Source of the DNA: Candidatus Roseilinea mizusawaensis
GTDB taxonomy: Bacteria; Chloroflexota; Anaerolineae; J036; Brachytrichaceae
Length of the DNA: 64,000 nt
Assembly: GCA_016841965.1 (NCBI GenBank)
Contig: JAEANN010000022.1
Coordinates: 62,001-126,000, forward strand
Reading direction: 5' to 3'
The notes under the pieces were generated by a model, which worked only from the letters and a program-made list of their open reading frames with translations, was not told the DNA's origin and ran no database searches. The position numbers and the translations under genes were made by a program. Below are positions 13,180-24,788 of the stretch, in pieces (positions within the stretch are counted from its first letter, which is position 1; each line of letters starts with the position of its first letter).

Positions 13180-15306
13180 GTGATCGGCATTGTTCTAATC
13201 GTCTTCGGGGTGATGGTTATTGGGCTGGCCGGGCTAATTGCCTGGTGGCAACTCGCTGTGGCCGAAGGCGCGTATCTGGGACGCCGCGTTGTGGCGTTCC
13301 TGTACGATCGCTACGCGGGCCGCTACGATCAGGTCAAGCAATTCCATCCAGCCAACGATGCTGTGATGCTGGCCATGCCAATCCTGGAACATTTGGCCAC
13401 AATGGGCAACCGGCAGGCAGAGGTGCGCGTGCTGGATGTTGCCACCGGCACCGGCCGGCTGCCGGCGGTTCTGCTGGGCCAGTCGGCATTTCGCGGGCGC
13501 ATTGTGGCGCTGGACATCTCGCCGAAAATGCTAGAACAGGCGCAAGCCAAACTGAGCAGCTACGCAGGTCGCGTGGAATGGATGCGTCAGGACGCGCAAC
13601 ACTTGCCATTCCAAGATGCCAGCTTTGATGTGGTTACGTGCCTGGAAGCGATTGAGTTCTTCCCGCGTCCGTTCGAGGCTGTGGCGGAACTGGCGCGGGT
13701 GTTAAAGCCGGGCGGCTTGCTCATGGTCAGCAACCGGGTCGGTCCTGATGCGTGGAAACTGCCGGGCCGGGCGATGCCATCTGCCGAGTTTGCAGCGCTG
13801 CTCAGCCGGCTTGGACTGGTCGACATTACCATTCAGCACTGGTTGGTGGACTACGATCTGCTGCTTGCCAGACGACACAAAGATCAGCACCAGAATATCA
13901 AGATGAGGCGACTCATGACCCATATACTGCATGATGCACTCCAATACGCCGAAGCGCGCCGTGACCTGTTCGTGGCTCAGTTGTCAGAGTATTTGTCCAT
14001 TCCGAGCGTCAGCGCCCAGCCACAACACAGCCGGGATATCAAATACGCGGCGCTATGGTTGGCCGATCATCTGCGCGAGCTGGGACTGCGCGCCGAGATT
14101 TACGAGACCGGCAGCGAAGATGATCCCGGCCACCCGGTAGTGTTTGCCGAATGGCAACACACAGACCCCCATCGGCCCACCCTGCTGATCTATGGCCATT
14201 ACGACGTTCAACCGGCAGACCCGATCGAAGAATGGGAGAGCGGGCCGTTCGAGCCGGCAATCCGCGACGGCTATATCTACGCGCGCGGGGCCAGCGACAA
14301 CAAAGGCCAGCACATGGCACATATCAAAGCTGTCGAATCGCTGCTGAAGACAGCCGGCACTTTGCCGGTGAATGTTAAATTCCTGATCGAAGGCGAAGAG
14401 GAGATCGGCGGCACTCACCTTGGCCCATTCATCGCCGGCCACGCTGAGTTGCTGGCCTGCGACGCGATCGTGATCAGCGATTCGTCGCTCATCTCGCCGA
14501 CCCAGCCGGCGTTGGTGTATGGACTGCGCGGGCTGGTGTACTTCGAAGTTGAAGCGCGCTGCGCATCGCATGATCTGCACTCCGGGACCTACGGCGGCAA
14601 TGTGCAAAATCCGCTTATGGCGCTGGCACAGATTCTGGCGCGATTGAAGGATGCGCAGGGGCGCGTGCTGGTGCCGGGCTTTTACGACGACGTGCGCACA
14701 CTGGATGCCGCCGAGCGCGAGGCATTGGCCCGCGCGCCGTTGAGCGAGGCCGGCATCCTCGCCCAAACCGGGGCCAGCGCCATTTTCGGCGAGGCCGGCT
14801 TCTCAATCGCCGAGCGCATGGGCGCGCGCCCGACGCTGGAGATCAACGGGCTATGGGGCGGGTACACCAGGCCGGGGGCCAAGACGGTGCTGCCCGCAAC
14901 TGCCTACGCCAAGATCAGTTGCCGGCTGGTGCCATACCAGGAGCCGGAAAAGGTGGTAAGGGCTGTCACAGACTATATGCGGCAGGTTGCGCCGCCGGCA
15001 ACCACGCTGGCTTTTCGCGCGTTGCAGGGCGGCAGCCGTGCCACGCTCATCGCGCGCGATTCGCCATACATGCAGGCTGCCGCCCGCGCGGCAAAGGCCA
15101 CCTATGGCTACGAACCGGTGTGGATGTTGGAAGGCGGATCGCTGCCCGTGGTGAATGACTTCCAGTCTGTGCTGGGCAAGCCCGTGATCCTGCTTGGATT
15201 CGGATTGGAAGGGGATCGGCTGCACGCGCCAAATGAGCGATTTGCGCTGACGTGCTATCAGAAGGGGATCGAAGCCGGCATCCGGCTATTGTGCGAATGC
15301 CAGTAG
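13180..15306 (+). CDS. SAM methyltransferase fused to M20 dipeptidase
   Basis: One uninterrupted 708-residue frame covering two complete enzymes. Residues 1-~235 have an N-terminal membrane helix (about 4-28) and a class I methyltransferase fold, with SAM motif [12 protein letters not shown] near 84-95 and [13 protein letters not shown]. Residues from about 246 on form an M20 metallopeptidase (dipeptidase type) with [29 protein letters not shown] and the dimerisation domain. Both halves are near full length for their families. ATG 13915 (residue 246) has GAGG six bases upstream, so the peptidase could also be translated alone. The join looks like loss of the methyltransferase stop codon. Confidence 0.85.
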
Positions 15307-15379: not shown

Positions 15380-16471
15380 CTACGCCATCAACCGCTTTTC
15401 TTCCTCGACCTGCTGTTTGGCGACATGGCAGGCCACCAGGTGGCCGGGCTTAAGCTCCTCGAACGGCGGATCGTCAACTTTGCAACGATCGATCGCCACC
15501 GGGCAGCGCGGGTGGAAGCGGCACCCACTGGGCGGGTTGATGGGGCTTGGCACCTCACCCTGCAAAATGATGCGCTCGCGCTTGATAGTTGGGTCGGGAA
15601 TCGGGATGGCCGACAAGAGCGCTTTGGTGTACGGGTGCAACGGGTCGCGGAACAATGTCTCGCGGTCGGTCAGCTCGACCATTTTGCCGAGATACATGAC
15701 GCCAACGCGGTCGCTGATGTGCTCGACGACACTGAGGTTATGAGCGATGAAGAGGTAGGTCAGGCCGAATTCGCGCTGCAAGTCCTTCAGCAGGTTGAGG
15801 ACCTGCGACTGAATGGACACATCGAGGGCTGACACCGGCTCGTCGCACACGATGAACTTGGGCCGCAAGGCGAGCGCGCGCGCAATGCCGATGCGCTGGC
15901 GCTGACCGCCGGAGAACTCGTGTGGGTAGCGCCGGGCATGATAGTCTTCGAGACCAACGCGCTTGAGCATCTCCATGACGATGTCATTGCGCTTCTTGCT
16001 GTCACGCATGCCGTGCACCAGCAGGCCTTCGCCGACGCTCTCGCCGATCGGCATACGAGGGTCGAGCGATGAATAGGGATCCTGAAAGATGATCTGCATG
16101 TCGCGACGGATGGCTTTCAGGTCTGGGCCGGTCAGACTGAAAACGTCACGGCCTTCAAAAATAACCTTGCCGCTGGTGGCCGGGATCAGCCGCAACAAGG
16201 TGCGGCCGACAGTGGTTTTGCCGCACCCCGACTCACCCACCAAACCCAGCGTCTCGCCGCGCTTGATATTGAATGACACGTCGTCGACCGCTTTGACCTG
16301 AGCAACAGTGCGCTGCAGAATGCCGCCGCGGATCGGGAAATACTTCACCAGGCTTTTCACCTGGACCATGTCTGGTTCACCGCCCAGCGCCTTGCCGTTC
16401 GCTGGCGTGGATACCGTCGATGGCGTCCGAGTGGTTGTTGATGAATTCATGCTACCTGACCAGTCGCACAC
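15380..16471 (-). CDS. oppF: Oligopeptide/dipeptide ABC transporter ATPase (OppF)
   Basis: A 363-residue ABC ATPase of the Opp/Dpp class. Walker A is [15 protein letters not shown], the signature is [15 protein letters not shown], and Walker B is [13 protein letters not shown]. The C-terminal oligopeptide/dipeptide extension has the Cys-containing [14 protein letters not shown] segment typical of an Fe-S-binding OppF/DppF tail. It pairs with OppD to drive peptide uptake through OppBC. It is last in the oppABCDF operon, 68 bp after oppD. Confidence 0.95.
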
Positions 16472-16539: not shown

Positions 16540-17589
16540 CTACTTTTCATACATCCAGCAGCGCACCCAGTGATTGGGCTCAACTTCACGCAACGGCGGC
16601 GTCTCGACTTTGCAGCGCTCGCGGGCTGCGCCCTGACACGCCTGGCAACGCGGCTCAAACCGGCAGCCCGGGGGGGGGTTGAGCAGGTTGGGCACTGTGC
16701 CCGGAATAACGTCAAGGTGCTCTCGCACCTTGCCCAGCACAGGAATTGAGCCGATGAGACCCTGTGTGTATGGGTGCAGCGGCCTGGCGAACAAGGTGTA
16801 CACGTCGGCCTCTTCAACGACCTGGCCGGCATACATCACCACCACGCGCTCGCACATTTCGGCGATCACACCGAGGTCGTGCGTGATCAGCATAATGGAC
16901 GTGCCGGTCTTATCGCGCAGATCGCGCATCAGGTCGAGAATTTGGGCCTGAATGGTCACATCGAGGGCGGTGGTTGGCTCGTCGGCGATCAGCAATTCTG
17001 GCGCGCAAGCCAACGCCATGGCAATCATGACGCGCTGGGCCTGGCCGCCTGAAATCTCGTGGGGATAAGCATGCACGCGCTTCTGCGGCTCTGGGATGCC
17101 AACCATGCGCAGCAGTTCGATCGCGCGCTTCCAGCCGGCCTCCTTGCCCAGGCTTTGGTGAATATTCAACACTTCGGCGATCTGATCGCCAATCTTGAAG
17201 ACCGGATTCAAACAGGTAGTAGGCTGTTGAAAGACCATCGAGATACGGTTGCCGCGGATCTGGGTCATTTCTTTCTCAGGCAACTCCAGCAAATTCGTGC
17301 CGTCGAAAATGATCCGGCCCTCGACAATTTTGCCGGGGGCGCCGACAAGTCGCATGATGGACAGCGAGGTCACGCTCTTGCCACAGCCCGATTCACCAAC
17401 AATCCCGACAGTCTCGCCGCGTTTGACCTTCAGATCAACACCATCGACAGCCTTGACGACGCCGTCTTCGGTATAGAAATAGGTCTTGAGACCCTGAACG
17501 TCTAACATCAGGTCGCTGCGGTCCGAGCCGGCGTTGGCCTTGCCGGCTACCCGCGCGCCTTTAGCAGCGGCAGGTGCTACAGAACTCAT
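16540..17589 (-). CDS. oppD: Oligopeptide/dipeptide ABC transporter ATPase (OppD)
   Basis: A 349-residue ABC ATPase. Walker A is [15 protein letters not shown], the signature is [15 protein letters not shown], and Walker B is [13 protein letters not shown]. The C-terminal extension carries [10 protein letters not shown] and a further Cys, as in OppD/DppD. Heterodimer partner of OppF. The first 27 residues are an Ala-rich unconserved lead. It follows oppC on the same strand, with a 77-bp gap. Confidence 0.95.
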
Positions 17590-17666: not shown

Positions 17667-18674
17667 TTACATCTTAAGCCGCGGGTCCAGCGCGTCGCGC
17701 AGCCCGTCGCCAATGAAGTTGAAACCGAGCGAGCACAGGACGACCGGGATGCCGGGGATGAGCGGAACCCAGGGATTGGTCAACATGAAGTTGGTGGCGA
17801 ACTGGAGCATGTTGCCCCAGGTCGGGGTCGGATCGGTGATGCCGACGCCGAGGAAGCTCAACGCCGTTTCGGCAGTCAGCGCGCCGGCCAGGCTGAGCGT
17901 GTACGCTACGACGAGCGGGGGAAATGCATTCGGCACCACGTGTCGCAGAATGATTCTTACATTGTTTGCGCCCAGGGATCGCGCAGACTCGATGAAGTCG
18001 CGCTCACGCACCGAGAGCACCATGCCGCGCATCAAACGCGCTGCGCCGGTCCAACCAAACAGGGTGAGCACAACGATCATGGTCAACACTTGCGCGCGTT
18101 CGGTGCCCACCGAGTTGAGCAGCATCAGGTTGCCGATCAAATCCAGCACGAACGGCGGATAGGGCAACAGCTTGGGGTCGGTGATGAGAATAGAGGCGAT
18201 GATGAGCAGAATGGGGAAGTCGGGAATAGAGGCCATGAATTCGAGGACGCGCATGACGATGCTGTCCACGATACCCCGAAAGTAGCCGGCCAACGCGCCA
18301 AGGGTCATACCGATCAACGTGGCCGCAGTGGCCACAGAGAAGGCTACACTGAGCGTGATGCGTGCAGCATAGAGCAGGCGGGTGAAGAAGTCGCGCCCGA
18401 CATGGTCGGTGCCCAGGATGTGAAGCGTGCCGGTCTGTGGATTAGTGGTTAGTGGCGGAGAAAAGCGCGGCGCCAGACCGGTCGCATCGCGAGGGAATGG
18501 CGCTAGAATCGGCGCCATCAGGGAAGCAACGAAGATCAGCACCAGAACGAACAACGAAATCATCGCCAAACGGTGCCGGCGGAAACGGCGCAGGACTATC
18601 GTCCACTGTCCTTCGGATTTGCGCAAAGCGATGCCGCGCGAGGCGGCGGGCAGGTCTGCTGTGGTGCTAGCCAT
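17667..18674 (-). CDS. oppC: Oligopeptide ABC transporter permease (OppC)
   Basis: A 335-residue inner-membrane permease of the DppC/OppC type. The N-terminal OppC_N helix is at about 33-55, with HILGTDHVGRDFFTRLLYA before the core helices. The ABC-coupling EAA loop is at RERDFIESARSLGANNVRI. Five to six membrane helices in total. It forms the channel with OppB. Length and order are normal. Confidence 0.95.
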   Translation of the reverse strand: MASTTADLPAASRGIALRKSEGQWTIVLRRFRRHRLAMISLFVLVLIFVASLMAPILAPFPRDATGLAPRFSPPLTTNPQTGTLHILGTDHVGRDFFTRLLYAARITLSVAFSVATAATLIGMTLGALAGYFRGIVDSIVMRVLEFMASIPDFPILLIIASILITDPKLLPYPPFVLDLIGNLMLLNSVGTERAQVLTMIVVLTLFGWTGAARLMRGMVLSVRERDFIESARSLGANNVRIILRHVVPNAFPPLVVAYTLSLAGALTAETALSFLGVGITDPTPTWGNMLQFATNFMLTNPWVPLIPGIPVVLCSLGFNFIGDGLRDALDPRLKM

Positions 18675-18714: not shown

Positions 18715-19905
18715 CTAACTCATCCGAATGCGTGGATCGACGATTGTGTACAGCACGTCGGACACCAGGAAGCCGACCAGTGTCAAAAAGGTCGAAATCA
18801 ACAGATACGCAATCGCAACTGGATAGTCGCTTGCGGTGAGCGAGTTGATAAACAGCTTGCCGATGCCCGGCCAACTAAAGACGCTTTCGGTAATAATGGC
18901 ACCGCCGAACAGGGTGGGCAACACGCCGGCCAGCAGGGTGACAAAGGGGATCAGCGCATTGCGCAAGGCATGTTTCATGATCACCACGCGCTCGATCAAC
19001 CCTTTGGCGCGCGCTGTGCGCACGTAATCCTGGCGCAGGACTTCCAGCATAGACGAGCGGATGAAGCGCGTCCAGCCGGCCAGGCTGAAAAAGGTCAATA
19101 CACCCACCGGCAAGATCAGATGCCAGATACGGTCAGCCACAGAGCCGGATTCTATCTGGCCAAACAACGGAATCACAACGTCCCGGTTCGATGTGGCTAA
19201 CCCGGCCGGCAAATAAGGCAGCCCAAGGTCTTTAAAGATCAGTGCGAAGATGAGGATGCCCATCACCCCTGTAAACAAGGTGGGCATGCCAGAGCCAAAG
19301 AAAGCCAGGGTGGTAAAGAAATAGTCAAATCGAGAATACTGCCTCACTGCGGAGTAGACGCCAATGGGGATCGCAATGGCGATAGCCAGGAAGGTAGATA
19401 CCCCCATCAACAGCAGGGTTGGACCCAAGCGCGTGTTGATAAGTTGTGATACGGGCCGCTCGCGCGCCAGTTGCTGCGAACGCCCAAAATCCAGCGCGAT
19501 CACGCCGTTACTCACCGGACGTCCGTCCAGATCGCGCAAATAGACCGGTTTGGCACAATTGATCTCTTCGACCCGCCCATCTGGATAGACCAGTTGTGCT
19601 TTGCCGGGCTTAAGACATCCGACTTGAAAATTTTGTGCAATCTCCTGGCCGTTGATCATGATCGCCCCACGCGGATGGCCGATCAGCCAGCGCAAAAAGC
19701 GAACGCCAATATCCAGGTCGAGGTCATAACGCTTCATGATGCGCTCGACTTCGTCGGGGTCGGGTCTGCGTGTGGTGCTCTGTAGGGAGGCCAATTGTTC
19801 AAGCGGGCCGCCGGGAGCTGAATACAGCAGCACGAACGAGGCAAAAGAGATGATGAACGCCATGATGACGATCACCACAAACCGGCGGATCAAATAGTTG
19901 AGCAT
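18715..19905 (-). CDS. oppB: Oligopeptide ABC transporter permease (OppB)
   Basis: A 396-residue permease. The N-terminal helix (about 5-30) is followed by a long external loop (about 35-160) containing two Cys and a region with DFGRSQQ. Five core helices follow, with the EAA-type loop VLRQDYVRTARAKGLIERVV. The extended first loop is longer than in E. coli OppB but usual for environmental Chloroflexi-like transporters. It is translated 88 bp after oppA, with a strong hairpin in between, which would allow less permease than binding protein. Confidence 0.94.
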   Translation of the reverse strand: MLNYLIRRFVVIVIMAFIISFASFVLLYSAPGGPLEQLASLQSTTRRPDPDEVERIMKRYDLDLDIGVRFLRWLIGHPRGAIMINGQEIAQNFQVGCLKPGKAQLVYPDGRVEEINCAKPVYLRDLDGRPVSNGVIALDFGRSQQLARERPVSQLINTRLGPTLLLMGVSTFLAIAIAIPIGVYSAVRQYSRFDYFFTTLAFFGSGMPTLFTGVMGILIFALIFKDLGLPYLPAGLATSNRDVVIPLFGQIESGSVADRIWHLILPVGVLTFFSLAGWTRFIRSSMLEVLRQDYVRTARAKGLIERVVIMKHALRNALIPFVTLLAGVLPTLFGGAIITESVFSWPGIGKLFINSLTASDYPVAIAYLLISTFLTLVGFLVSDVLYTIVDPRIRMS

Positions 19906-19993: not shown

Positions 19994-21988
19994 CTAGCGG
20001 ATGTTCAGGTTGAAATCGGCGTGCTCCCAAGTCTGGCTACCGACAGGCTCAGCGACGATGTTGCCTTTGGCGTTCTCTTCGATCACGGTCTGGAGCTCCT
20101 GACCAGCGCCCAGAGTTTCCTTACCGACCACGTCGACGGTGCCCTGCAACAGAGCAGCCACTGCGCCGGCCGGGTTAGCGTCGAAGATTTGAACGACGAT
20201 GTTCTTGACCTTCGGCTCACCCTTCCAGTAGTTGGGGTTGGCTTCCAGGGTGATTTTCTGGCCGCGCTCCCAGCTCTTGATCACATAGGGGCCGGTGCCG
20301 AGCGGGGTATCGGTCACTTCTGGCAGATCCTTGAACTCCTTCGGTTCAACTTCGCCCAGCGTGCGGCCATCGGCCAGCTTCTGGTGAGACGGATAGTAGC
20401 CAAACGGGGCGAGATAGTAGGTGGGCGGCTGGTAGCCGGCTGCATAGACGACCTTGTAGCTGTTGTCATCCAACACCTCAAACGAGATTACACGGTCGCA
20501 GGTCAAGAAGTTGACTGCGCCGGACTCGCGGTCGCAGGCCACTTTGTGACCCAACTCCCAGTCAGCTTTCTTGACCGGCTCGCCATCGCTCCATTTGTGT
20601 GGCTTGAACTTGTAGGTGACGGTCAACTGGGGCAACTTGGCGCCGGCCTTGATTTCAACATCGTTGCCGTTAACGTCTTTGCCGGTCAGAGCCAGCTCTT
20701 TGCCTTCCATGTCGACGAGCTTGCCGTCTTTCAGCGTACCAACGTCGCCATCGCCGTTCACGACCGTATCCCCATCTTTGATCTCAACTTCTGCATTGAC
20801 TGCACCGCCATTCTCGATGGTAGGGAACTGATCGCCTTCATACATCACCGGCTGGAAACCGTAGCTGTATTGGGTGCTGAACGTGCCAAAGACCAGTTGA
20901 CCCACTACGACGGCCACCGCCGCGCTTTCTTGCAGCAGGAACAGCGAGGCCGGTTCCTGACCCAGCGCAATCACCACTGTATCTTTGCCGGGCAACTCCC
21001 AGTCGGCTGCGCTGGCAGAGAAATATTCCGTTGGGTCAGCAATCAGACCCTTCAGCTCTTTGTTGTGGCCGGTGGCCTCGAGGCGCTGGAAGAGCGGGAG
21101 CGAGATCATGTCCTTGCTGAACTCTTCCTGAACGATGGTGTACAGGCGCTTGCGTTCAGCATCGTTGAGGGTGTTGTTGGCCTGCTTGATGGCCTGGCTG
21201 GCCTTCTCGTTGCACCAGCCCATGTAGTTCTGGCCGTTCCAATTGTTGGCCGGCGTCGGGATCTGGTCGCAGGCGTACAGGGTCACACCGGGCGGTTCTG
21301 TCTCGCCAACCCAGGCAAACGCGCCGATGTCAAAGTCGCGCCGGCGCAAACCAGAGTTGCCGCCGAACCAGATCGAGCCGGGGATGTACGACGGCAGGAG
21401 CTGGATACCGCACTTCTGCAGCGAGCTGACAAACACGGCGCCCCATGTCTGGCGGAACGGCGCGTTGGTCGTGGTGAAGCGCAAGGCCAAGGGTTCGCGA
21501 TTGGCATTCACACGAATGGCCGCGCCTTCGGGCAGCGTCCAGCCGGCTTCATCCAGCAACTGGCCACCCTTCTCCGGATCATATGGATAGTCCACGATAT
21601 TGGCGTTTGGATCGACGTTCTTGGCATACCACACAGAATCCTTCGGGATGAAGGTATCCATGAACAGCTTGCTGCGTTGTTCATCCGGCAGATATCCGTA
21701 TACCGAGCCGATCAGGGCGCTGCGGTCTGTGCAGTGCGCAATCGCCTGGCGCACACGAATATCGCTCAGAATCGGATGCGGGGTCGTCCACTCAGCAGGG
21801 GCGGCTGCCGTGACTTCAACAACCTTTTCGACAACCTTTTCCACTTCCTTCGTCTCGACGACGACGGCTGTCTCTTTGACAACGACGGTCTGCACAATGG
21901 GCGTGCCTGCAGGGGCAGCGCAAGCGGCCAGGATCATGCTGGTCGCAGCAGTCAAGCCCAAAACAGCAGGCAGTTTTCGGGTGATCAT
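19994..21988 (-). CDS. oppA: Oligopeptide-binding lipoprotein, circularly permuted
   Basis: A 664-residue solute-binding protein (SBP_bac_5 family), exported as a lipoprotein: signal ending LAAC with Cys23, then a Val/Glu/Lys linker (about 31-60). The domain order is swapped. Residues ~71-325 correspond to the normal C-terminal half: PILSDIRVRQAIAHCTDR, YDPEKGGQLLDEAGW, then SLPLFQRLEATGHN. Residues ~333-664 correspond to the normal N-terminal half: DTVVIALGQEPASL first, then KWSDGEPV, TGPYVIKSWERGQ, NPNYW, DVVG, and finally TWEHADFNLN at the very end. In ordinary family members WEHADF-N directly precedes the ILSD-RVRQAI segment. No residues seem lost, so folding may be preserved. The start ATG has AGGAGGAG upstream. 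Confidence 0.92.
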   Translation of the reverse strand: MITRKLPAVLGLTAATSMILAACAAPAGTPIVQTVVVKETAVVVETKEVEKVVEKVVEVTAAAPAEWTTPHPILSDIRVRQAIAHCTDRSALIGSVYGYLPDEQRSKLFMDTFIPKDSVWYAKNVDPNANIVDYPYDPEKGGQLLDEAGWTLPEGAAIRVNANREPLALRFTTTNAPFRQTWGAVFVSSLQKCGIQLLPSYIPGSIWFGGNSGLRRRDFDIGAFAWVGETEPPGVTLYACDQIPTPANNWNGQNYMGWCNEKASQAIKQANNTLNDAERKRLYTIVQEEFSKDMISLPLFQRLEATGHNKELKGLIADPTEYFSASAADWELPGKDTVVIALGQEPASLFLLQESAAVAVVVGQLVFGTFSTQYSYGFQPVMYEGDQFPTIENGGAVNAEVEIKDGDTVVNGDGDVGTLKDGKLVDMEGKELALTGKDVNGNDVEIKAGAKLPQLTVTYKFKPHKWSDGEPVKKADWELGHKVACDRESGAVNFLTCDRVISFEVLDDNSYKVVYAAGYQPPTYYLAPFGYYPSHQKLADGRTLGEVEPKEFKDLPEVTDTPLGTGPYVIKSWERGQKITLEANPNYWKGEPKVKNIVVQIFDANPAGAVAALLQGTVDVVGKETLGAGQELQTVIEENAKGNIVAEPVGSQTWEHADFNLNIR

Positions 21989-22822: not shown

Positions 22823-24703
22823 TCACGCCTGCGGCGCGGCCTGCGCGCGCGTCGCGGTCGCCAGTCGCTCTGCTTCCTCCATCAAGCGCTGTAGTTCGTC
22901 GAAGCCGACTTGCCAGAATCCGGCGTCGTGGATATCCACGCCCACCAAGGCCAGTTGCTCGGCCGGCGACAAACTGCCCCCCGATTCCAACAGCGCGGTG
23001 TAGCGCGGCACGAACGAAGCGCCTTCGCGGCGGTATTTGCCGTACAGCGCCAGCACCAACAACTCGCCAAATGAGTAGGCGTAACAGTAGAACGGGGTAT
23101 TGATGAAGTGTGAAATGTACGACCATCCCCATTCATATCCTCTGGTTAACGAAACTACATCGCCGTAGTAGGGCGCATTGGCCTGCAACCACAGGGCGCC
23201 GATCTGAGCGCCGCTCAGCCGGCCTTTTGCCCGCGCGGCATACACCAGTTGCTCGAAGCGAGTCAATACTGTCTGCCGGAACAGCGTGGCAAAGCTGTCT
23301 TCCAGCTTGCTGGCAATCAGCGCCAGGCGCTTGTGCGGATCGCTCAGCCCGGCCAGCAACTCCTCGAACACCAGCATCTCGGCGAAGACGCTGGCCGTTT
23401 CGGCCACCGGCAGGCTCATGTAGTAGTTGAACAGCGTCTGCTTGCGGCTGAGGTAGAAGTGAATGCCGTGGCCAAGCTCATGCGCCACCGTCATCACGTC
23501 GCGCAGGTCGTCGGTGTAATTGCACAAGATGTAGGGGTGCGCCGAGGGGGACACGCCGGCGCAGAACGCTCCGCCGCGTTTGCCGTTGCGCGGGTCGGCG
23601 TCAATCCAGCGCGCTTCGAAGAACTGCTGGGCGATGTCTGCAAAGGCCGGCGCAAAGCGCCCTAGCGCCCTCAGGATAACTTCGCGCGCCTCGCCGAACG
23701 TCACCCGTTCTTTGACGCTCAGCAACGGCGCATACTGGTCATATAGCTCCAGCTTCGGCAGGCCCAGCAGTCCGGCCTTCAGCGCAAAGTAGCGGTGCGC
23801 CAGGGGGTAATTGCGCTCCACCACGTCCATCATTGTCTGAACCGCGCCGGCGTCGATCTCGTTCGCCAGGTGTCGCGGCGCCATGGGGTCGTCATACTTG
23901 CGCAGCCGGTTGGTCACCAGGTGATCCTGAAAACGCGTGTCGTATACAAAAGCCAGCACTTGCCCTTGTGATTCCAACGTGCTGTAGAACGACTCGAAGG
24001 CGGCCTGTCGCACGCCGCGATCTGGGTCGCGCAACAGCGTCAGCACCTCGCTCTGGTTCAACTCGCGCGTCTGGCCGTTGGTCTGCACCTTGAAGCGCTG
24101 TGCGGCGTTGAACTCAGTGAAGAAGCGCCGCCAGGCGTTGATGCCCGTCAAGTCCTTGTCGTTCATCAAGCGCTCTTCCGGCTCGCTGAGGGTGTGGGGC
24201 TTGAAGCGGCGCTCGCTGCTCAGATAGTGGCGGTATGGCGCCAGGACGGGATCATCGATCAGTCCACGGGCATGTTCCTCCGGCACATCCAGCCATTCCA
24301 GGTCGAAAAACAGAAGCTGGTTGCGCAGGGCGGTCATGTGCTCTTCGACCCGCTGCATCAATGTGCGGTGCGCTTCCTGGCTGGTGTCGGCGGCAAACAA
24401 CAATGACGCATAGGCGCTGATTTTGACCATCTCTTCTTGCAGGGCTTCGGCTTCCTGCAGGGCTGTCAAGAGATGGCCGGCGGTCGCGCCGCCGGGCGCG
24501 TTGATCGTGCCGCGATATCGGGCTGCAAAAGCCTCAGCCTGCGCTGCCACCTGCTGCAAGGCGCGCTCAATCGCCGGGTCATCCGGCCTGCTGAAAAACG
24601 CGCTCAGGTCCCATGCTACGCCGGCCGCGCTTTTCTCTGCAAGCGCGCCGACCGGCGCGGCTGCGGCTTCCACAAATCGATCTATCCACTTGTCGAATCT
24701 CAT
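22823..24703 (-). CDS. pepF: Oligoendopeptidase F (M3 family)
   Basis: A 626-residue zinc metallopeptidase of family M3B. The active-site HELGH is at residues 408-412 in [17 protein letters not shown]. The third ligand Glu is expected in the downstream [13 protein letters not shown] helix. It has no signal peptide and probably hydrolyses oligopeptides of 7-20 residues in the cytoplasm, a natural partner for the nearby oligopeptide importer. The start is ATG 24703 ([10 protein letters not shown]). An upstream in-frame start at 24748 adds only unconserved residues. Confidence 0.93.
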
Positions 24704-24788
24704 AGTTGCATATTCTACCGTCCAGCCATGGGCTGGATGGCCTGTCACTTAGATGCGGCAGGGTCTTTTTGGTTGCGCCCGCTGGGAA

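Follow-up and report, generated by a model that had tools for sequence, protein, structure and literature searches.

The gene and its operon

On the minus strand of the window (the whole 64,000-nucleotide stretch of DNA that was analysed) lies a gene for a lipoprotein of the SBP_bac_5 family, which heads a complete oppABCDF operon (Table 1). Besides a sequence match, assignment to SBP_bac_5 carries expectations of export with a lipid anchor, an OppBCDF-type transporter, and a canonical N-to-C domain order. The first is met by the signal sequence, MITRKLPAVLGLTAATSMILAAC23, in which the signal and the lipobox Cys are invariant among the aligned permuted proteins, and the second by the operon; the third is not met, as the two halves of the protein are swapped. 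An earlier note, made from the sequence alone, had given the coordinates of the open reading frame, the positions of its landmarks (PILSDIRVRQAI at residue 72, DTVVIALGQEP at 336-346, and TWEHADFNLN at 653-662), and a lipoprotein signal ahead of the permuted order, and all of these held.

Table 1. Features of the permuted SBP gene and its operon, in window positions.
Feature	Positions	Strand	Evidence or remarks
Permuted SBP_bac_5 lipoprotein gene	19994-21988	minus (21988 to 19994)	ATG start, 664 aa
Lipoprotein signal peptide and lipobox Cys23	21920-21988	minus	M1, A22, and C23 invariant in 45 aligned permuted proteins
Val/Glu/Lys-rich low-complexity linker, residues 24-70	21779-21919	minus	Sequence; predicted disordered up to residue 61
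Lobe II module (native C-terminal half), residues 71-330, begins PILSDIRVRQAI	20999-21778	minus	PF00496 210-358; 2d5w 311-569, Z 24.8
Join, native C-terminus to native N-terminus	20981-20998	minus	Linker of only 3-5 residues between two profile matches
Lobe I module (native N-terminal half), residues 337-651	20036-20980	minus	PF00496 17-179; PDB profile matches 6i3g 46-226, 2d5w 79-311
C-terminal TWEHADFNLNIR, end of predicted hinge strand 644-659	19997-20032	minus	Model; WEH-to-stop spacing
OppB/DppB-type permease, 396 aa	18715-19905	minus	PF00528 and PF19300; 8j5q_B Z 27.4, 8z1y_A Z 26.6
Permease periplasmic insertion, about residues 77-140	19486-19677	minus	Predicted beta-hairpin 94-106/112-122; invariant Cys97 and Cys117
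OppC/DppC-type permease	17667-18674	minus	PF00528 and PF12911
OppD/DppD-type ATPase	16540-17589	minus	PF00005 and PF08352
OppF/DppF-type ATPase	15380-16471	minus	PF00005 and PF08352
M3-family oligoendopeptidase F, upstream of SBP gene	22823-24748	minus	PF01432, PF08439

This gene order is repeated among relatives: where the flanking sequence is long enough, the permuted SBP gene almost always stands at the head of an ABCDF operon, and mainstream permuted SBPs are often the only SBP of their operon. L005 and L014 likewise have the oligoendopeptidase F gene upstream, and the window and L067 both have an M20 peptidase downstream; these genes suggest, by inference, peptides as the substrate. The M20 peptidase of the window (residues 336-704) shares a single open reading frame on the plus strand (13180-15306) with a SAM methyltransferase domain (residues 85-182), and a true fusion, a missed start, or a sequence error are all possible. 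Another locus of the window's family, L193 (G009:C174), has OppD and OppF ATPases that closely resemble their counterparts in permuted operons, together with a native-order SBP and different OppB and OppC permeases with shorter loops, as if SBP and permeases had been swapped as a unit.

Domain order, fold, and new termini

Sequence matches place the two halves of the protein in the reverse of the family order. The Pfam profile PF00496 aligned with residues 71-238 at model positions 210-358 (E 2.1e-19) and with residues 455-626 (123-294 of the C-terminal half) at model positions 17-179 (E 1.6e-28), giving a score of 167 bits against a curated cut-off of 32.4 that either half alone also exceeds. 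NCBIfam Opp4A matched residues 72-321 at model positions 312-547, and the 2d5w chain of the PDB was matched by residues 78-310 at 326-558 and by residues 564-660 at 209-309. Residues 334-664 are homologous to the N-terminal half of family-5 SBPs, and a profile built from 32 lobe I segments matched the N-terminal halves of the solved family-5 proteins 6i3g and 2d5w. Scans of Pfam and NCBIfam returned profiles of family 5 (PF00496, Opp4A, NikA, DppA, and others) and none of a cluster B family. Because its halves match in swapped order, the protein is filed as a circularly permuted variant rather than as an ordinary member of SBP_bac_5 (cluster C), to which it belongs by sequence and not by domain order. 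The earlier note had claimed this circular permutation, had proposed matching each half to SBP_bac_5 as a check, and had named a normal-order HMM alignment as refuting; the claim held, the C- and N-terminal parts of the model were matched in swapped order, and a normal-order alignment was looked for and not found.

The predicted structure is in keeping with these matches for lobe II. An AlphaFold2 run with 45 permuted relatives gave a model with a pLDDT of 86.4 and a pTM of 0.80, in which only residues 1-61 were disordered (pLDDT < 50). Residues 67-321 of the model superposed on the C-terminal half of 2d5w (311-569) with Z 24.8 and rmsd 2.1, and lobe II matched OppA of M. tuberculosis (8j5t) with Z 22.4. 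Whole-protein structure searches aligned lobe II only because the aligners respect chain order, and the geometry between the lobes was judged from pTM only, with the fold of lobe I, and the contact that the C-terminal strand would make with lobe II, taken from sequence and secondary structure and not from coordinates. The window protein may be inferred to fold as the usual two-lobed flytrap, an inference made without an experimental structure and supported for lobe I by sequence only.

The last predicted strand of the model, residues 644-659, is best equated with hinge strand two of the family, the point at which OppA passes from domain I into domain III. The last strand of the window protein (TWEHxDxN) would cross the hinge back into lobe II and, since it would end there, both new termini are inferred to lie on lobe II beside the hinge, which refines the claim of the earlier note that they fall near the inter-lobe hinge. 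Independent support for placing the strand with lobe II comes from derived secreted proteins lacking lobe I, which keep WEHxDxN directly after lobe II (L065, L066, L155/L122, and twice in L174). With the termini so placed, the lipid tether would shift from lobe I to lobe II.

Conservation and origin of the permutation

Relatives were gathered from a scan of approximately 85,000 species genomes and from searches within the phylum Chloroflexota, and many full-length relatives share the swapped order. Classified by half order, 65 distinct open reading frames are permuted versus 32 in native order. Permuted SBPs are present in 43 of 400 genomes drawn across Chloroflexota, with members in Thermoflexales, Roseilinea, other Anaerolineae, and Chloroflexus- and Roseiflexus-type genomes. 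The best matches among plasmids were in two pieces with 24-30% identity, no plasmid record covering 80% of the query.

The boundaries of the permutation are nearly constant. WEH precedes the stop by 11 residues in 58 of the 61 proteins, the module starts with PHPIL[SG] in most of them, and the join between the native C-terminus and the native N-terminus is kept at 3-5 residues. The cut falls in the native loop between WEHxDFN and LxDxRVRQA, a variable surface loop that in native relatives leads from the hinge strand to the first helix of lobe II and spans 26-36 residues from WEH to RVRQA; as the chain is cut inside this loop, only loop residues were lost, which bears out the claim of the earlier note that the cut ends meet. 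The gene is under strong purifying selection, with dN/dS of 0.044-0.101 between the window gene and the four closest relatives compared (L005, L014, L006, and L007), and values are low in lobe II, lobe I, and across the join alike. Selection rather than chance, as had been proposed from the signal peptide, is upheld by this result and by the 65 distinct permuted frames.

One objection is that the swapped halves stem from misassembly or misbinning of a contig with an otherwise ordinary gene. The window genome is a 59-contig draft, and individual artefacts of metagenome-assembled genomes do occur in the set, such as unrelated sequence at a contig edge in L013/L047. Against this, 65 distinct proteins, drawn from many families and from assemblies made independently, show the same order and cut points, the permuted gene is intact in single-contig genomes (G021, G053, G056, G190, G174, G221, and G380), and purifying selection extends across the join. 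An assembly artefact is rejected because the swapped order is conserved among species, and it can be regarded as all but excluded. Such a rearrangement had been set beforehand as refuting the permutation; none was found, and the suggested search of related Chloroflexota genomes returned the same order in dozens of species.

A few permuted SBP genes are split into two open reading frames by frameshift-like changes, namely L022 1663-3862/L055 (one species in two records) and the gene of G290 (L158 5303-7343), for which error and decay could not be distinguished. Apparent split half-genes in G052 and G057 were rejected as such and are contig ends instead. It could be argued from split frames that the polypeptide is processed into two half-proteins, or that formerly split half-genes were re-joined in the other order, and the frames in G011/L022 (8-324 and 324-664, 82% identity) and G290 would be in favor of this. 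Such frames look like isolated frameshifts, however, in a set of close relatives whose genes are intact; native half-genes were not found, and the join is conserved at 3-5 residues, leaving this explanation very unlikely.

The permutation arose once in Chloroflexota. In a tree of full SBPs, for which the permuted sequences were first put back into native order, all 63 of them formed one clade (SH-aLRT 99) with the native-order L069 as sister, and trees of each lobe alone also recovered one permuted clade (SH-aLRT 100 for lobe I and 99 for lobe II); single origin is concluded from these clades. The nearest relatives by lobe II are the native-order L069, L163, and L164. The latter two, which are full length, are sister to the permuted clade by lobe II (99) and only weakly grouped with it by lobe I (49), and the permuted stem branch measures 0.89 in lobe I versus 0.40 in lobe II.

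This asymmetry bears on a rival origin, in which the C-terminal half of one SBP paralog was fused to the N-terminal half of a neighboring paralog. In favor of such a chimera, permuted lobe II is closest to native L163/L164/L069 (41-48% identity versus 29-36% for others), whereas permuted lobe I is hardly nearer to L163 (33%) than to L063 (32%) or L061 (31%), and a 54-residue beta segment of lobe I is common to other native SBPs and short in L163/L164. Native SBP genes of another clade also adjoin permuted operons in five genomes (G053, G137, G407, G360, and G380), and a first lobe I tree placed L163/L164 elsewhere with a support of 100. The chimeric origin suggested by that tree was not upheld once the length-variable segment was removed, as the permuted proteins and L163/L164 then grouped together, though weakly (49), and rate acceleration on the long permuted stem can explain the difference between lobes. 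A chimera is therefore considered unlikely but is not excluded. The adjoining native SBPs were rejected as direct parents, as they belong to another native clade in the tree.

Tandem duplication of a native gene is inferred to be the likely and simplest route to the permutation, although no intermediate has been found. After duplication, the N-terminal half of the first copy, the second signal peptide, and the C-terminal half of the second copy would have been lost. Apart from the main clade, a second permuted-order SBP with both lobes of another type is encoded by a contig-edge gene in one genome only (G020; L072 94-1611, minus strand). Its signal, linker, and lobe II start are nearly identical to those of mainstream permuted genes, and whether it is an independent permutation, a recombinant, or an assembly chimera is unresolved.

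The partner permease, lobe II modules, and known systems

The OppB-type permease of the operon carries an insertion of approximately 60 residues in its periplasmic segment, with invariant P78, G80, G96, C97, C117, and G134. From the PGGP motif to TM2, all full-length permeases of permuted operons have 115-131 residues. Of the 23 native operons, 21 have 59-84 residues here, and the other two (L153 and L175) have long permeases with sequence unrelated to the insertion. A profile of the insertion matches only loci with permuted SBPs, and no homologous insertion was found in native-order operons. Across the 400 genomes, the permuted SBP occurs in 43, the insertion in 43, and both in 42, so that the insertion accompanies the permuted SBP in all but one of its 43 genomes. 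In G345, a contig end cuts just upstream of the permease, and in G443 a divergent permuted SBP lies beside a permease without the insertion. Permeases of permuted operons formed one clade (99) in a tree made without the insertion columns, and their sister (88) was the L163-operon permease (L176), in parallel with the tree of lobe II.

In the AlphaFold2 model of the permease (pLDDT 81.8), the scoop helices 32-42 and 50-59 are kept and the insertion forms a long beta-hairpin. The corresponding TM1-TM2 segment of E. coli DppB contains the scoop, which fills the cleft separating the DppA lobes (PMC12136057), and because the insertion is predicted to sit near the scoop, a docking role is proposed for it here. 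In this view, the OppB partner would have gained a periplasmic hairpin by the scoop motif on the same tree branch as the permutation, and the hairpin may help dock the permuted, re-tethered SBP. A docking adaptation is the simplest reading, but it is inferred; as permutation and insertion fall on one branch, they represent a single event and offer no proof of co-adaptation, and their association may possibly be hitch-hiking.

Lobe II also occurs in related secreted proteins, singly or in two copies, and the WEHxDxN strand accompanies it in every case. Proteins encoded in three genomes of two families (L065 3852-5198; L066 5652-7247, minus; and L155 6431-7675, minus) consist of lobe II, then WEHIDFN, then an unassigned C-terminal segment that ends in [YF]LP[VM]VxR, and they lack lobe I. 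A 769-aa open reading frame in L174 (5248-7554) has two tandem copies of lobe II with WEHIDxNL after each, followed by a C-terminal segment of the same type ending in HLPLAIR. An 822-aa protein of G259 (L191 11035-13500, minus) combines a full permuted SBP with a C-terminal segment ending in YLPIINR, and resembles an intermediate toward the lobe-II-only proteins; no transporter genes were found within 19 kb of it. It is inferred, from sequence, that the permutation made lobe II a separable module that was reused alone or in tandem.

These proteins raise the alternative that the permuted protein is a repurposed secreted binding or sensory protein that is no longer a transport receptor, for which the G259 protein, with its extra segment and no transporter genes nearby, and the existence of lobe-II-only and tandem lobe II proteins may be cited. 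Mainstream members, including that of the window, nevertheless head a complete oppABCDF operon, often as its only SBP, and the permeases share the history of the SBP, making repurposing very unlikely for them. The preferred reading is that the window protein is the receptor of an Opp/Dpp-type ABC importer and a circular permutant of a cluster C SBP, which is very likely in the absence of structural, binding, or transport data. As such a receptor, it would capture peptides or similar oligomers and dock on OppB/OppC as usual, although this is inferred without binding data. A bolder reading joins all of these observations: one ancient re-siting of the anchor and termini, a co-adapted OppB hairpin that contacts the SBP near the hinge, a distinct importer subclass ("cluster Cc") across Chloroflexota, and a lobe II freed for reuse in non-transport surface proteins. 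Taken as a whole, this is somewhat less likely than not.

Compared with OppA/DppA/AppA SBPs of cluster C (2d5w, 1xoc, and M. tuberculosis OppA 8j5q), the window SBP shares the family profile for both halves, the fold of lobe II, its lipoprotein nature, and its ABCDF operon partners, but its halves are swapped, its anchor is inferred to be at lobe II rather than lobe I, and its permease partner has an extra predicted periplasmic hairpin. The transporter has the same subunit composition as E. coli DppABCDF and M. tuberculosis OppABCD (PMC12136057; 8z1y and 8j5q), and the permease model matches DppB/OppB (Z 26-27) with scoop helices kept; it differs in the insertion after the scoop region and in the permuted SBP. 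The only described natural SBP permutant found in the open-access literature is TpMglB-2 (Tp0684), a circularly permuted glucose-binding lipoprotein proposed as "Type Ic/Cluster Bc" (PMC4990184). Both are natural, clade-wide circular permutations of a lipid-anchored ABC SBP, and the authors of that work also suggest a link between permutation and tethering (PMC4990184). TpMglB-2 belongs to cluster B, binds sugar, and has three strands moved inside its N lobe with a hinge crossing added (PMC4990184), whereas the window SBP is cut at the hinge between whole lobes and its halves still match the family by sequence. No described permutant of family 5/cluster C was found in the open-access literature searched, with subscription papers not covered; the statement of the earlier note that none was known held to this extent.

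Searches that depend on chain order, whether by fold or by family (Foldseek, VIA realignment), register such proteins as half matches only, which matters for annotation. It is rare to find a natural circular permutation of a large receptor alongside native-order sisters, clear evidence of a single origin, and a partner complex that is intact, and this system makes it possible to ask what drives the permutation of a flytrap, be it folding, anchoring, hinge motion, or docking. The system is also a candidate example of co-adaptation between receptor and permease, and it suggests how one half of a receptor may become an independent domain.
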